Assembly: GCA_026396415.1 (NCBI GenBank)
Contig: JAPLWX010000037.1
Location: 1 to 43,398 of the forward strand
From: Microcaldota archaeon
GTDB lineage: Archaea > Micrarchaeota > Micrarchaeia > Anstonellales > Anstonellaceae
DNA length: 43,398 nt
Direction: 5' to 3'
Shown here: piece by piece, positions 7,319 to 42,317 of the stretch
Layout: every line of letters begins with the position of its first letter
Position numbering within the stretch: the stretch's first letter is position 1
Notes under the pieces: model-generated
What the model saw: only the letters and a program-made list of their open reading frames with translations
Told to the model about the DNA's origin: nothing
Databases searched by the model: none
Translations under genes and position numbers: made by a program

Positions 7319-7984
7319 ATGCGAAAAAGTCGATGTCTTTTAGGTCAGGCTGCCATTGAGTTGCCCTCGGGGGCAACCGATTTGTCGACGCATCGACAAA
7401 TGGTCCACTCGAGCCAATGCTCGAGTCGGACTGCTCGCCGCTTGTCTGGTCAAGCGGCGATTGAGTCGTCCTGCGGGACGACTGCTGGCAGCTTGCGTGC
7501 GCAAGCTGCCATGGAATATCTTGTTACCTACGGCTGGGCGCTTCTCGTGCTTTTCGTGGTGGTCGCCTACCTCCTCACATCAGGCGCGTTTTCCGCAAAC
7601 AGCTTTGCCGCGCAGGAGTGCGTGTTCCAGCCCGACCTGCCCTGCTCCCCCTACGTCCTCTACACCGAAAACGGCGCCACCGTGCTCAAATTCACCATCA
7701 CGAACGGGCTGGGCTTCCCGATAAGCATCTCGGAAATTAACTACACCACGACCGGGATAGGCGCCATAGGGAGGAGGGTTTATTTCGCAACACTGCCCGC
7801 CAACGCCCTCCCCTCAGGCGCAAGGATGAATTTCACGCAAGCCTTCCCTGACAGCCCGCAACCTTCGGAAAACGACTTCCGAACAATCTACGTGTCCCTC
7901 GCCTACCTCAACTGCAAGAGCTCGCCGTGCAGCGGCCCCTATGTGACCTCGGGCAGGATTTCGGCGGTTGTGCAGAAGAAATAG
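7319..7984 (+). CDS. Type IV pilin-like protein with expanded class III signal region
   Basis: The functional signal is RAQAAMEYL (Q62-E66) followed by a long hydrophobic helix (about residues 68-88), the hallmark of archaeal pilins cut by PibD/FlaK before the Q. The mature part is a 160-residue beta-rich extracellular domain with four Cys (in CVFQPDLPC and CKSSPC). Unusually, the n-region is about 60 residues and contains two extra GQAAIE motifs (Q10 and Q45) without a following hydrophobic stretch. The DNA of this part is packed with six hairpins. GGAGAGGAGC precedes the ATG, with a TATA box at 7286-7298. smc follows 65 bases after the stop. Confidence 0.8.
   Translation: MRKSRCLLGQAAIELPSGATDLSTHRQMVHSSQCSSRTARRLSGQAAIESSCGTTAGSLRAQAAMEYLVTYGWALLVLFVVVAYLLTSGAFSANSFAAQECVFQPDLPCSPYVLYTENGATVLKFTITNGLGFPISISEINYTTTGIGAIGRRVYFATLPANALPSGARMNFTQAFPDSPQPSENDFRTIYVSLAYLNCKSSPCSGPYVTSGRISAVVQKK
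7360..7510. repeat. Six back-to-back hairpins inside the pilin signal region
   Basis: Perfect stems with small loops, in order: 7360-7377 (GTTGCCC, loop TCGG), 7380-7401 (ATTTGTCGA, loop CGCA), 7407-7426 (ACTCGAGC, loop CAAT), 7435-7460 (TCGCCGCTTG, loop TCTGGT), 7464-7483 (AGTCGTCC, loop TGCG) and 7487-7510 (GGCAGCTTGC, loop GTGC). Spacers are 2-8 bases. The stems differ in sequence, the frame stays open, and the 3' arms of hairpins 4 and 6 encode the Gln-Ala-Ala of the repeated signal motif. Confidence 0.9.
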
Positions 7985-20795: not shown

Positions 20796-21578
20796 ATGAA
20801 AGCGCAAATGTACTCCATTGATGGGAAGGCTACGAGGGAAGTGGAACTGCCCCCGCAGTTCTCCGCCGTTGTCCGGCCCGACCTGATTGCCCGCGCGGCA
20901 ATCTCCGACCAGACCAGGCACTACCAGCCCAAGGGCAACGACCCCCGCGCAGGAATGGAGACCTCGGCGCGCTACAAGGGCAGGAAGGAGGACTTCGGCT
21001 CGGGCAAGAACAAGGGAACCGCCATCCGCCCCCGTGAAATCCTCCCCAAAGGAAGGCTGGGAAAAGTAAAAAGAATCCCGTCCGCAGTGAAGGGAAGGCG
21101 CGCGCATCCGCCGCACGTGAACAAGATAATAATAGAAAGGATGAACAGGAAGGAATACAGGATAGCGCTCATTTCCGCAATCGCGGCGACCTCGCACAAG
21201 TCAACGGTGGAGGCGCGCGGCCACAAAGTGCACGTCGCCCTCCCCATCATATTTGACAATTCATTCGAGGCGCTCACGAAGACGTCGCAGGTGGAGCGGG
21301 CGATAACGCCCTTCGTCGGCGACGACCTGGCGCGCTGCCGCAAGCCCAAGCTCCGCACAGGCGTGCGCAAGCGCAAGGGCGGCAGGACGTACCCAAAGTC
21401 CGTGATAATCGCGGTCGCGTCGGACGCGCCGGTGCTCCGCGCGGCAAGGAACATTGCAGGCGTGGACGTGGTGAAGGTTTCCGGCCTCACGGTCGAGAAG
21501 CTCGCGCCCGGCGCCAAGGCGGGAAGGCTCGCAATCTACACGGAAGCGGCTCTTGCCGAGATTGCAAAAATCCAGTGA
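20796..21578 (+). CDS. rpl4: Ribosomal protein uL4
   Basis: 260 residues, archaeal length; lines the peptide exit tunnel through its long internal loop (GMETSARYKGRKEDFGSGKN, RRAHPPHVNKI). The C-terminus carries the SVIIAVASDAPVLRAARNIA then GVDVV block. GTGAT overlaps the uL3 stop (CAG-TGA-T) and lies 9 bases before ATG 20796; the in-frame GTG at 20787 would add Met-Ile-Phe but is better read as part of the ribosome site. Confidence 0.95.
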   Translation: MKAQMYSIDGKATREVELPPQFSAVVRPDLIARAAISDQTRHYQPKGNDPRAGMETSARYKGRKEDFGSGKNKGTAIRPREILPKGRLGKVKRIPSAVKGRRAHPPHVNKIIIERMNRKEYRIALISAIAATSHKSTVEARGHKVHVALPIIFDNSFEALTKTSQVERAITPFVGDDLARCRKPKLRTGVRKRKGGRTYPKSVIIAVASDAPVLRAARNIAGVDVVKVSGLTVEKLAPGAKAGRLAIYTEAALAEIAKIQ

Positions 21579-26256: not shown

Positions 26257-26721
26257 ATGACAACGGCAAGCAACAACTCCGTGCAAGGAAGGAAGCAGCG
26301 CAAGTACCGCTACACCGCCGCGAACCACCTGCGCAGGAAAATGGTATTCGTGCACATTGGCAAGGAGCTTCGCGCCAAGCTTGGAACCGCCCGCAGGAGC
26401 ATCCAGCCGCACAAGGGCGACAAGGCAAAGGTGCTGCGCGGGGACCACAGGGGCCACACCGGGAAAATATTCGAGGTGGACCTTTCCGCCCTCAAAATAT
26501 ATGTCGAAGGCGCAAACTCACGCACCGCAAAGGGCGTGGAAAAGCTGGTGGCGCTCGACCCGTCCAACCTCGTGATTCTCGAGGGCGAGTTCGTGAAGGA
26601 CCGCCTGGCTGCGCTTAACCGCTCGCCGACGGCAGTTTTGCGAGGCAAAACTGCGCCCATTGGAGCCCAAGGCTCCAATCGGGAATTGAAAGCAAGCGCA
26701 TCTGCGCCCAAGAAGCAATAA
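26257..26721 (+). CDS. rpl24: Ribosomal protein uL24 with hairpin-bearing C-terminal extension
   Basis: 154 residues; early assembly protein with a KOW motif (QPHKGDKAKVLRGDHRGHTG then KIFEVDLS). The N-terminal part RKYRYTAANHLRRKMVFVHI is archaeal/eukaryotic type. The C-terminal 30 residues (from TAVLRGKTAPIGAQGSN onward) are encoded by two perfect DNA hairpins (26632-26679) and look like an insertion rather than conserved protein. TTGATATTT precedes ATG 26257. Confidence 0.93.
   Translation: MTTASNNSVQGRKQRKYRYTAANHLRRKMVFVHIGKELRAKLGTARRSIQPHKGDKAKVLRGDHRGHTGKIFEVDLSALKIYVEGANSRTAKGVEKLVALDPSNLVILEGEFVKDRLAALNRSPTAVLRGKTAPIGAQGSNRELKASASAPKKQ
26632..26679. repeat. Two adjacent hairpins inside the 3' end of the uL24 gene
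   Basis: GCAGTTTTGC-GAG-GCAAAACTGC (26632-26654) and ATTGGAGCC-CAA-GGCTCCAAT (26659-26679) are perfect stems of 10 and 9 bp with 3-base loops, 4 bases apart. They stay in frame, encoding the non-conserved tail. Confidence 0.88.
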
Positions 26722-36275: not shown

Positions 36276-36346
36276 CAAGAAACTAGAATTTCTTGTCCTG
36301 CTTGGCGCAAGCGCCAACCGTCCAAAAAGTTCCCTTAGAACTTTTT
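36276..36346. repeat. Three consecutive hairpins after/at the zinc-ribbon gene end
   Basis: CAAGAAA-CTAGAA-TTTCTTG (36276-36295), TTGGCGC-AA-GCGCCAA (36302-36317) and AAAAAGTTC-CCTTA-GAACTTTTT (36324-36346) are perfect stems of 7, 7 and 9 bp separated by 6 bases each. The third contains the last codons and stop of the minus-strand zinc-ribbon gene. Confidence 0.85.
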
Positions 36347-36571
36347 GTGCTTGGGGAAGCAGTCCCTGCAGTACACAGGCCTTCCTTCTGTCGGCTTGAA
36401 TGGCACTTCGCATTCCTGGCCGCAGTCAGAGCAAACAGCCTTGCTCATTTCGCGCGGGCCGCCGTATCCGCCGCCGCGCCCGCCGCCGAAGCCGCCACGG
36501 CCTCCGCCGCGCCCGCCGCCCCTGCCGCCATGTCCGCCGTATCCGCCGCTGTCGTCATCTCCATATCCCAT
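36335..36571 (-). CDS. Gly-rich zinc-ribbon protein, 78 aa
   Basis: The first 40 residues are Gly/Arg repeats (GGRGGGRGGGRGGFGGGRGG); the last 38 form a zinc ribbon, C-x2-CG...VPFKPTEGRPVYC-x2-C. Such small proteins are common in candidate-phyla and DPANN genomes. Gly/Arg-rich tails often bind RNA, so RNA binding is likely but inferred. AGGTGAATATAA precedes the ATG. Two TATA-like boxes (about 36655-36665 and 36677-36687, minus) imply a leader of 60-90 bases. Confidence 0.8.
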   Translation of the reverse strand: MGYGDDDSGGYGGHGGRGGGRGGGRGGFGGGRGGGYGGPREMSKAVCSDCGQECEVPFKPTEGRPVYCRDCFPKHKKF

Positions 36572-40355: not shown

Positions 40356-41762
40356 ATGAAAACCTCTTTTCGCGCGCAGGGCGCCTCGGAATATCTCGTC
40401 ATCGTCGCAGTGGTCGTCTTCATCGCACTGGTTGCAATTGTCCTCCTTAGCGGTGCCCCCGGTACCGCATCCGACGCCCAGGTCACGCAAAGCCAGACCT
40501 ACTGGGGCGCGGTGGGCCCGCTCGCCATCTCGGAAGCATCCGCCGTCCCGAATGGCTCAGGCGCGTCCATCCCATATCTCAAGGTGAGGAACAAGGAGGC
40601 ATATCCCATCAAGATCACCGCGCTTCTGGGCAACAACCAGTCAATTTCCACATTGCAGAACGGCACGCTGCCCTCCTGCTACAACATAGCCCCTGGCGGG
40701 GACACCTTTATAGGAAGCGGCAGCTGCAGCGTCACAATAGGCTCCGGCGCAAGCTCCGGCACCACGCTTGGAGGGGCATCGTCCCTCTGTTCCGGCTCAT
40801 CCAGTTATCTTGTCATGAACAACTTCGGCTTTGAGTACCAGACCCAAGGGGGAATCACCAAAAGGCAGTATGGCCAGCCCCTTACCATCAAGTGCAGCGG
40901 AACCGCGCCCCAACCAAGCGCATGCGCAAACGACAGCCAGTCCTGCGCAGACACCACGTGCTGCCCAGGCAACACCTACTTTAATGGCGCGAGCCTGGCC
41001 TGCAATCCGGCTGCAATCTGCGCAGTGCCTCCGTATGGAGGAATGATGGGCACGGCGCAATCGTTAAATGCGGGGGAGAGCAGCCACTGGGCAATATACT
41101 GTAACTGTGTGGATCCAGCTGCATTCCCCAATACCCGCTGCCTCTCTGCATCATTTGATTGGGGCGATGGAACGGCGGTGACCGTTGTTGACAATACAAT
41201 CGGGCATCCAGCGTATACTATTGGGGCGGATCACACATACACTGCTGCTGGCACATATACAATTACAGCCACTGCCACTGATGTATACGGCTCGACGCTA
41301 GCGGGCACCCAGGCGGTCACGGTGACCAGCGCATGCGCAAACGACAGCCAGTCCTGCGCAGGCACCACGTGCTGCGATGGATTGGAGCTGTCTTGCAACC
41401 CTGTGCAGGTATGCGCCATGCCCCCGCAATCCAGCGGCATTTTCGGCCCGGGCTCTGCAAACGCGAGCCAGGAGAGCACATGGGCATTGCAATGCGTCGT
41501 CGGCCCGGGCTCTGCAAACGCGAGCCAGGAGAGCACATGGGCATTGCAATGCGTCGTCATGGACCAGTACAACTCTGACACCCACTGCACCGCTTCATAC
41601 CAATGGGGCGACGGCACGGTGACCAATGGCGTATATACCGGGTCCAATTACCTCTCTGCCAATCACACCTACAGCGCTTCTGGCACATATGATATATTTG
41701 CCACCGGCACAGACACCATGGGCTCGACAGTGACGAAAACCAAGAGCGTGACGGTCAACTAG
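40356..41762 (+). CDS. Surface protein with class III signal peptide and PKD domains
   Basis: 468 residues. The N-terminus RAQGASEYL (cut before Q8) plus a hydrophobic helix (residues 14-32) marks a pilin/archaellin-type processed protein. It is followed by a Ser/Gly-rich stalk, a Cys-rich repeat ACANDSQSCA-x-TTCC present twice (about 188 and 325), and two PKD-like domains (SFDWGDGTAVTVVDN...YTAAGTYTITATATD and SYQWGDGT...YSASGTYDIFATGTD). The last PKD domain is preceded by two identical 19-residue repeats. It is probably an adhesin or pilus-tip protein. A duplicated copy of its 3' end follows the stop. Local duplications may have been misassembled. Confidence 0.8.
   Translation: MKTSFRAQGASEYLVIVAVVVFIALVAIVLLSGAPGTASDAQVTQSQTYWGAVGPLAISEASAVPNGSGASIPYLKVRNKEAYPIKITALLGNNQSISTLQNGTLPSCYNIAPGGDTFIGSGSCSVTIGSGASSGTTLGGASSLCSGSSSYLVMNNFGFEYQTQGGITKRQYGQPLTIKCSGTAPQPSACANDSQSCADTTCCPGNTYFNGASLACNPAAICAVPPYGGMMGTAQSLNAGESSHWAIYCNCVDPAAFPNTRCLSASFDWGDGTAVTVVDNTIGHPAYTIGADHTYTAAGTYTITATATDVYGSTLAGTQAVTVTSACANDSQSCAGTTCCDGLELSCNPVQVCAMPPQSSGIFGPGSANASQESTWALQCVVGPGSANASQESTWALQCVVMDQYNSDTHCTASYQWGDGTVTNGVYTGSNYLSANHTYSASGTYDIFATGTDTMGSTVTKTKSVTVN
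41444..41557 (+). repeat. 57-bp perfect tandem duplication inside the surface-protein gene
   Basis: 41444-41500 and 41501-41557 are identical and encode GPGSANASQESTWALQCVV twice, in frame. A third copy lies at 41819-41875 in the downstream cassette. Confidence 0.9.
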
Positions 41763-41775
41763 CGCCAGGCATTCC

Positions 41776-41804
41776 GCGCAAGCGCGCGCTTGCGCGCATT
41801 TTTT
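41776..41804 (+). terminator. Terminator of the surface-protein gene
   Basis: The perfect palindrome GCGCAAGCGCGCGCTTGCGC (41776-41795) is followed by six T (41799-41804), 14 bases after the stop. Confidence 0.7.
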
Positions 41805-41818
41805 CCTTATTTCATTTT

Positions 41819-42080
41819 CGGCCCGGGCTCTGCAAACGCGAGCCAGGAGAGCACATGGGCATTGCAATGCGTCGTCTTTGACCCATACAACTCAGATGGC
41901 CACTGCACCGCATCATACCAGTGGGGCGACGGCACGACGACCAATGGAGCATATTCCGGGAACAATTATCCCTCCGCCCCGCACACTTACAGCGCCGCCG
42001 GCACATACACGATAACAGGCACTGGCACAGACACCATGGGCTCGACAGTGACGAAAACCAAGAGCGTGACGGTCAACTAG
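41819..42080 (+). pseudogene. Silent PKD cassette (promoterless copy of the C-terminal domain)
   Basis: Continuing the frame of unit 1, this encodes GPGSANASQESTWALQCVV, then a variant PKD domain (SYQWGDGTTTNGAYSGNNYP, APHTYSAAGTYTITGTGTD) and the identical last residues SVTVN plus stop. It has no signal peptide, ribosome site or promoter of its own; an ATG at 41790 lies in the terminator repeat and is unlikely to be used. Recombination between the flanking identical repeats would place it in frame at the end of the surface protein. Confidence 0.65.
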
Positions 42081-42093
42081 CGCCAGGCATTCC

Positions 42094-42122
42094 GCGCAAG
42101 CGCGCGCTTGCGCGCATTTTTT
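42094..42122 (+). terminator. Second copy of the terminator
   Basis: An identical hairpin and six-T tract to that at 41776-41804, carried in the second duplication unit. Confidence 0.65.
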
Positions 42123-42317
42123 CCTTATTTCTGCTAAGGCAAGATTTATGTTTTGCTCAGAAGCTACCCAGCAACGATTTGACCCTGCTCAGTAGCATCG
42201 TTGTTCCTCTGTGTGCTGTTTATTCGCATACAATCTTTCATATTAATCTTATTTAACCTCTTTTTGCCACAATCTTTATAAACCCTTTGCCATAGATACT
42301 GTCTAAGAAGTGTGTTT

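Follow-up and report, generated by a model that had tools for sequence, protein, structure and literature searches.

Paired perfect hairpins in a prepilin gene and elsewhere in Micrarchaeota genomes: probable mobile palindromic elements

A hairpin cluster in the leader of a prepilin gene

The locus of interest lies in a 43,398-nt stretch of DNA from a Microcaldota archaeon (contig JAPLWX010000037.1), called the window here. It consists of a prepilin gene whose leader is interrupted by a run of hairpins. The features of this gene, together with two further hairpin sites in the window, are as follows (F2, F3 and F5 are families defined in the next section).

7319-7984, + strand: class III-type (archaellin/pilin-like) prepilin open reading frame, 221 aa, with the hairpin cluster interrupting its leader
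7360-7377, + strand: hairpin 1 (7 bp, loop of 4 nt)
7376-7430, + strand: complete F2 double-hairpin element, ACCG-(hairpin 2)-GGTCC-(hairpin 3)-CGGA
7380-7401, + strand: hairpin 2, the first hairpin of the F2 element (9 bp, loop of 4 nt)
7407-7426, + strand: hairpin 3, the second hairpin of the F2 element (8 bp, loop of 4 nt)
7435-7460, + strand: hairpin 4, an F3 hairpin B (10 bp, loop of 6 nt; right arm formed by the QAA codons CAAGCGGCG)
7464-7483, + strand: hairpin 5, an F3 hairpin A, TTG-AGTCG..CGACT-GC (8 bp, loop of 4 nt)
7486-7511, + strand: hairpin 6, an F3 hairpin B (11 bp, loop of 4 nt; right arm formed by the QAA codons CAAGCTGCC of the functional motif)
7502-7519, + strand: QAAMEY codons, conserved start of the mature pilin (alignment start; orthologues)
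26629-26688, + strand: 60-nt in-frame double-hairpin insertion of family F5, peptide TAVLRGKTAPIGAQGSNREL, in the gene for uL24 (identified by Pfam)
36276-36347, strand and family not assigned: probable further cluster, three hairpins by eye (window hairpin scan)

The reading frame is open throughout (it reads MRKSRCLLGQAAIEL...GQAAIESSCGTTAGSLRAQAAMEYLVTYGWALLVL), and the mature part of the pilin starts at QAAMEYLVTYGWALLVL. The protein has a match in 56 of 59 relatives but none in Pfam or NCBIfam; from its motif, we take it to be of the class III-signal-peptide type. Between 7360 and 7511, six consecutive perfect stems of 7, 9, 8, 10, 8 and 11 bp carry loops of 4, 4, 4, 6, 4 and 4 nt, and are separated by spacers of 2, 5, 8, 3 and 2 nt. 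All six had been reported in the preliminary description, as was their distance from chance expectation, and both points stand. The window as a whole contains 38 perfect hairpins (stem of at least 7 bp, loop of 3-8 nt), far above the mean of 17.2 and maximum of 26 in 30 dinucleotide shuffles; the six that fall within 160 nt in the pilin leader compare with at most three in any of these shuffles. The folding z-score of positions 7340-7520 against shuffled sequence is -10.2 under DNA and -7.9 under RNA parameters.

Hairpins 4 and 6 had been singled out as inverted copies of the codons for QAA. Indeed, their right arms hold CAAGCGGCG and CAAGCTGCC, and their left arms are the exact reverse complements of these. 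The F2 element scores 79.1 bits with the R1 covariance model (of which this copy is itself a part), lies within the pilin gene, and is common to a paralogous pilin of another species (L113, genome G005). There, the counterpart of hairpin 1 has a different, yet perfect, stem.

Alignment of pilin orthologues and paralogues from the same order reveals two states. Some genes lack any insert and start directly before GQAAMEY (e.g., L009, L011, L014, L016, L017 and L020), while others contain at least one module of the form GQAAIE-(hairpin A)-GCT-(hairpin B)-QAAMEY, each roughly 45-54 nt long, with GQAA direct repeats on both sides. Where a module is present, its stems are different and mostly perfect; the same hairpins are not kept as ordinary codons. 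The sequence of hairpin A differs in nearly every lineage while its pairing is almost always perfect: between this genome and G008 (locus L008; protein 77% identical), hairpin 5 differs by one compensated pair, C-G to G-C, and a new loop. In hairpin B, the right arm is formed by the QAA codons; across 16 modules these codons differ by synonymous changes, which the left arm tracks. Complementarity is seen at 128 of 144 positions, as compared with a mean of 109 and a maximum of 121 when arms were re-dealt among modules (5000 permutations). None of the 144 positions is a G-T, and eight of the 16 mismatches share a single position, which faces the second base of an Ala codon.

All named relatives that carry the pilin module are Candidatus Micrarchaeota. 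A pattern scan of 84,980 species returned 50 loci, and the module was found in only eight, all Micrarchaeota/archaeon loci; the others look like chance matches, several of them in QAA-repeat proteins. Viral contigs gave seven pattern matches, none with the pilin module. A second leader-located coding insertion was observed in G008 (L239, contig C131), where an F3-like double hairpin encodes the residues just before the hydrophobic part of the predicted signal peptide of a secreted protein.

Clusters and families across Micrarchaeota genomes

Hairpin clusters recur throughout this genome. In stretches covering about 24% of it, we found 47 clusters in 424 kb, 20 of which contain three or more hairpins; an earlier, smaller sample had given 40 clusters (two or more hairpins) in 390 kb. 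Shuffled control sequence (1.17 Mb) yielded two doublets and no triplet, and bacterial control contigs seven clusters in 306 kb, again without a triplet. Pooled genomes with family F2 contain 84 clusters in 913 kb, against two in 220 kb of F2-negative relatives. Densities in F2-bearing relatives are similar to that of this genome (G012, G053 and G008 carry 13, 11 and 8 clusters per 100 kb, respectively), and several close relatives show no clusters in samples of 20-40 kb. The shuffles and the hairpin-poor relatives rule out a chance origin of the clusters.

By a simple gene caller, 32 of the 40 clusters in the earlier sample are intergenic, while 78% of that sample is coding; the caller misplaced the pilin start, and the pilin cluster is thus counted among the intergenic ones. 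Given that clusters occur genome-wide, insertion at QAA codons only was rejected. Preferential insertion inside larger stems was also discarded: an outer stem surrounds 12.6% of clusters and 5.3% of random spots, too weak a difference, although one F1 unit was indeed located within another hairpin's loop (L132:16209-16330). The statement that the cluster hairpins belong to no known repeat family agrees with a search of Rfam 15 in six cluster-rich stretches: no family matched the hairpins, and the only overlap above gathering score was a tRNA whose intron holds a cluster. A group II intron match (RF00029) just above gathering score lies next to a tRNA and a series of hairpin clusters at L130:60-135.

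The same pattern had also been proposed for four other places in the window. This holds for 26632-26679, a true family member, and is likely for 36276-36347. The sites at 41775 and 42093 represent a single terminator-like palindrome, perfect and with a T run after it, that is present twice in identical form inside a tandem duplication (41740-42130; spacing about 318 nt); each copy of the duplication also includes a gene end. At 20844-20903, two weak stems in the uL4 gene may have arisen by chance.

The clusters are built from recurring blocks, which define families of double or chained hairpins. Their boundaries were drawn by eye from the flanks:

F1: cag-CATCG..CGATG-tctga-TGCATTTTGC..GCAAAATGCA-catc
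F2: wCCg-A..T-GGwCC-A..T-cGGw
F3: ttg-A..T-gc-T..A, the pilin module
F4: CCCa-CTTTTTG..CAAAAAG-GGGCCC-CTTTTTC..GAAAAAG-tGGG
F5: GACG-GCA..TGC-gCCC-A..T-cGGG

In each family the spacers and the bases of the stems are conserved, while stem interiors and loops vary freely and pairing is kept. A spacer is often complementary to the next, such that neighbouring palindromes overlap. The families are common to several genera, with different perfect stems. Among F1, F2, F4 and F5 copies picked by their anchors, 68 listed stems (some entered twice, through two patterns or both strands) are perfect and none has one or two mismatches; the remaining anchor matches, with at least three mismatches, resemble chance hits. 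Because the outermost one to four pairs are set by the anchors, the test bears on the inner pairs.

Family F2 was followed furthest. In an alignment of seven copies with 19 pairs, all 132 pair cells are standard and none is G-U (slid controls: 27-42% paired); eight of the 19 pairs are variable, with 20 cells changed on both sides and none on one side only. The F2 covariance model has matches in 33 of 301 Micrarchaeota genomes and 19 of 126 genera, counts that are uncorrected for shared phylogeny and drawn mostly from metagenome assemblies. The matches range from 31% to 71% G+C. In 44 copies read out, about four stems are damaged; nearly all stems are perfect and almost all are different. Some constraint on sequence is visible in 35 nine-bp stems, where positions 1 (A) and 6-8 (TCG) hardly change and the others vary. 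Mismatched stems do occur—in module 1 of G003, in some hairpin B stems, and as one G-T in L239—and part of the perfection of stems could stem from recent spread instead of correction.

Insertion sites, empty sites and candidate movers

Several copies can be compared with orthologues that lack them. The F5 insertion in uL24 is absent from the G008 orthologue, the protein of which is 88% identical. In the gene for TsaD/Kae1, the universal tRNA-modification enzyme (L143:2510-3688, contig C33 of G000), an in-frame insert of about 99 nt (33 aa) near the N-terminus contains an F3 double hairpin; in all 23 other positive genomes, the match begins after this insert or breaks around it. The 56-nt F3 unit in TsaD is identical to one at an intergenic site on contig C40. 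In this genome a tRNA gene (L139:1258-1456, minus strand) has a long intron with three hairpins, 113 nt of which are replaced by about 20 nt in G008, where the cluster is absent; in G006 and G010 the gene has no intron. Just upstream of the same tRNA, G008 contains an F3-like double hairpin, and this genome a triple hairpin of other sequence. As had been anticipated for hairpins that insert as units, the empty sites in orthologues support the gain of whole hairpins and, as far as alignments go, show that they were inserted as such. No target-site duplication was identified at the compared insertions.

The inserts are most likely translated, since their lengths keep the frame wherever a comparison was possible: the pilin modules, the uL24 insertion (60 nt) and the TsaD insert (about 99 nt) are multiples of three and have open frames. 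Furthermore, the F5 unit encodes AVLRGKTAPIGAQGSNRE in uL24 and, in altered form, is read in the same frame in the topoisomerase I (TopA) tail, in a 919-aa open reading frame, and in eL32 of another species (G001).

No transposase, recombinase or other mover could be linked to the hairpin elements. Y1 transposases have two matches in G000, three in G001 and three in G003—that is, in three of the ten genomes of the genus—and none in G012, which carries F2 in many places. IS200-type Y1 transposase genes lie between their own standard end hairpins at L139:11900-12750 and L165, and a second pilin gene with a module is found about 2 kb from such a gene. A link to reverse transcriptases was set aside as a weak association that fails in G012 (odds ratio of 3.6, Fisher p = 0.02, uncorrected for phylogeny). 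In this archaeon, an RT-16 RNA (RF03019) was observed near a reverse transcriptase gene (L140:5057-5227 and G000 C31:4070-4726).

A proposed mechanism, alternative readings and known systems

We propose that the hairpins are probably mobile palindromic elements of many Micrarchaeota, kept perfect by copying from arm to arm. The unit would be two adjacent hairpins of about 50-60 nt, able to chain into longer arrays, which has presumably multiplied in Micrarchaeota chromosomes, mostly between genes. In-frame copies would be retained in tolerant parts of genes—prepilin leaders that are removed by the peptidase, protein tails, a loop of TsaD—and also in a tRNA intron. The DNA itself may fold, as a single strand or a cruciform, and one arm may template the rewriting of the other, by quasi-palindrome correction or by re-synthesis of the hairpin; such rewriting could give rise to stems that are both perfect and diversified. 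In the pilin copies, the right arm would be held to the QAA codons, with the left arm rewritten to match. Hairpins 4 and 6 are thus best read as the pilin-adapted case of a genome-wide element. The earlier suggestion of growth by templated inverted duplication survives in part: the arms behave as templated copies, but growth out of the QAA codons is unsupported as an origin in general, since members of these hairpin families are also found in intergenic sequence, in unrelated genes and in the intron of a tRNA. A stronger version, in which a dedicated hairpin-copying system mobilizes a unit defined by its structure and junctions, copies arm onto arm, spreads into essential genes and continuously rewrites the stems, is offered tentatively, as a conjecture that we judge somewhat more apt to be wrong than right.

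Selection on RNA structure, for instance for control of pilin translation or for mRNA decay, might account for hairpins placed just after the start codon, for the strongly negative RNA folding z-score of -7.9, and for the strong covariation. RNA tolerates G-U pairs, however, and selection on RNA would normally leave both these and one-sided steps; it is their lack, in 132 F2 cells without G-U or one-sided change and 144 hairpin B positions without G-T, that disfavours selection on RNA and leads us to infer copying between DNA arms. Presence in orthologues is, moreover, patchy, and the same families lie between genes, in ribosomal protein tails and within the intron of a tRNA. We consider an RNA role improbable, and found no positive evidence for control of pilin expression, which had been suggested for the cluster: orthologues carry the module patchily, and the stems of its hairpin B are free of G-U pairs. 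Alternatively, the hairpins could have arisen in place, by template switching that duplicates host sequence in inverted orientation, with no mobile unit. Left arms that copy QAA codons, arms that are nearly always perfect, and the existence of nested and chained palindromes would all fit such an origin. It leaves unexplained the conservation of spacers and stem feet across 19 genera, the identical 56-nt unit at two unrelated loci, and the recurrence of the F5 peptide in four unrelated genes; the identical dispersed units largely refute origin in place as the sole mechanism, and we hold it to be unlikely.

Two further explanations invoke known machinery. The hairpins might be left over from IS200/IS605 or REP/RAYT elements that the Y1 transposases of this genome move; such enzymes act on DNA hairpins, and matches to them exist in G000, G001 and G003. 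Yet the Y1 genes have hairpin ends of their own, which are of another type (in several, the edge resembles TAGTTCAC), G012 and G008 contain many clusters and no Y1 match, and the cluster stems, unlike those of REPs, are not conserved in sequence, making this a very improbable source. It is scarcely credible that the inserts are lost before translation or in the course of it, as mini-introns or in the manner of byps, the translational bypassing elements of Magnusiomyces mitochondria. Short hairpin inserts within genes, and the GQAA direct repeats that flank the pilin modules, are reminiscent of these. However, a byps insert is untranslated and free in frame, whereas the Micrarchaeota inserts compared here have lengths that are multiples of three and open frames, which removal would not need.

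Mobile palindromic elements kept perfect by arm copying, the reading that we favour, have analogues in other genomes. Mitochondrial double-hairpin elements (DHEs; Paquin et al. 2000, as cited in PMC10085805 and PMC7813641) and the repetitive hairpin-forming elements of sponges (PMC2800124) are like the Micrarchaeota elements in that (i) they comprise two adjacent short hairpins, (ii) they are multiplied, mostly between genes but also in RNA genes, and (iii) they are patchy between relatives, with mobility inferred and no known mover. Families F1-F5 share with DHEs the arrangement of two hairpins around a short spacer, and presence or absence at orthologous sites. DHEs reside in mitochondrial DNA and the Micrarchaeota elements in archaeal chromosomes, making the latter an analogue and not a member. 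The search criterion for DHEs in PMC10085805 is over 75% G+C, whereas the Micrarchaeota elements are not especially rich (31-71% for F2); these also differ from DHEs in their in-frame insertion into essential genes. Their stems are far more variable, yet covarying, while DHEs of fission yeasts recur with identical sequence between species. We therefore describe the Micrarchaeota elements as working like mobile double-hairpin elements without belonging to the mitochondrial families.

Coding palindromes for which arm conversion has been proposed are present in the mitochondria of Nematomorpha (PMC6649704). These too are perfect inverted repeats in translated genes, perfect or absent, that are gained and lost; their arms are long and both encode conserved protein, in contrast to the short, dispersed units with conserved spacers described here. 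Rickettsia palindromic elements (RPEs) are in-frame palindromes in unrelated protein genes, including essential ones. Comparable in-frame insertion into unrelated genes is seen here by empty sites in pilins, uL24 and TsaD, and by shared peptide in TopA and eL32. As described, the arms of RPEs lose their identity over time (PMC6649704), while those of the Micrarchaeota elements remain perfect. Finally, REP and BIME sequences, which are associated with RAYT transposases, are characterized in PMC2817692 as dispersed, mostly extragenic and often paired palindromes, a description that also fits the Micrarchaeota elements. REP stems are conserved in sequence within a family, whereas the stem interiors of the Micrarchaeota elements differ between nearly all copies; no cognate Y1 enzyme could be linked to the latter, and the IS200-type Y1 genes of G000, G001 and G003 have ends that differ from them. 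The literature searched contains no description of such hairpin elements in Micrarchaeota or other DPANN archaea.

A ribosomal protein, a tRNA-modification enzyme, topoisomerase I and pilins most likely owe in-frame segments to the hairpin elements. Changes in the stems come in pairs and intermediate states are rare, so that the elements provide a natural test of how inverted repeats stay identical in genomes—a question that has been left open for both mitochondrial hairpin elements and coding palindromes.
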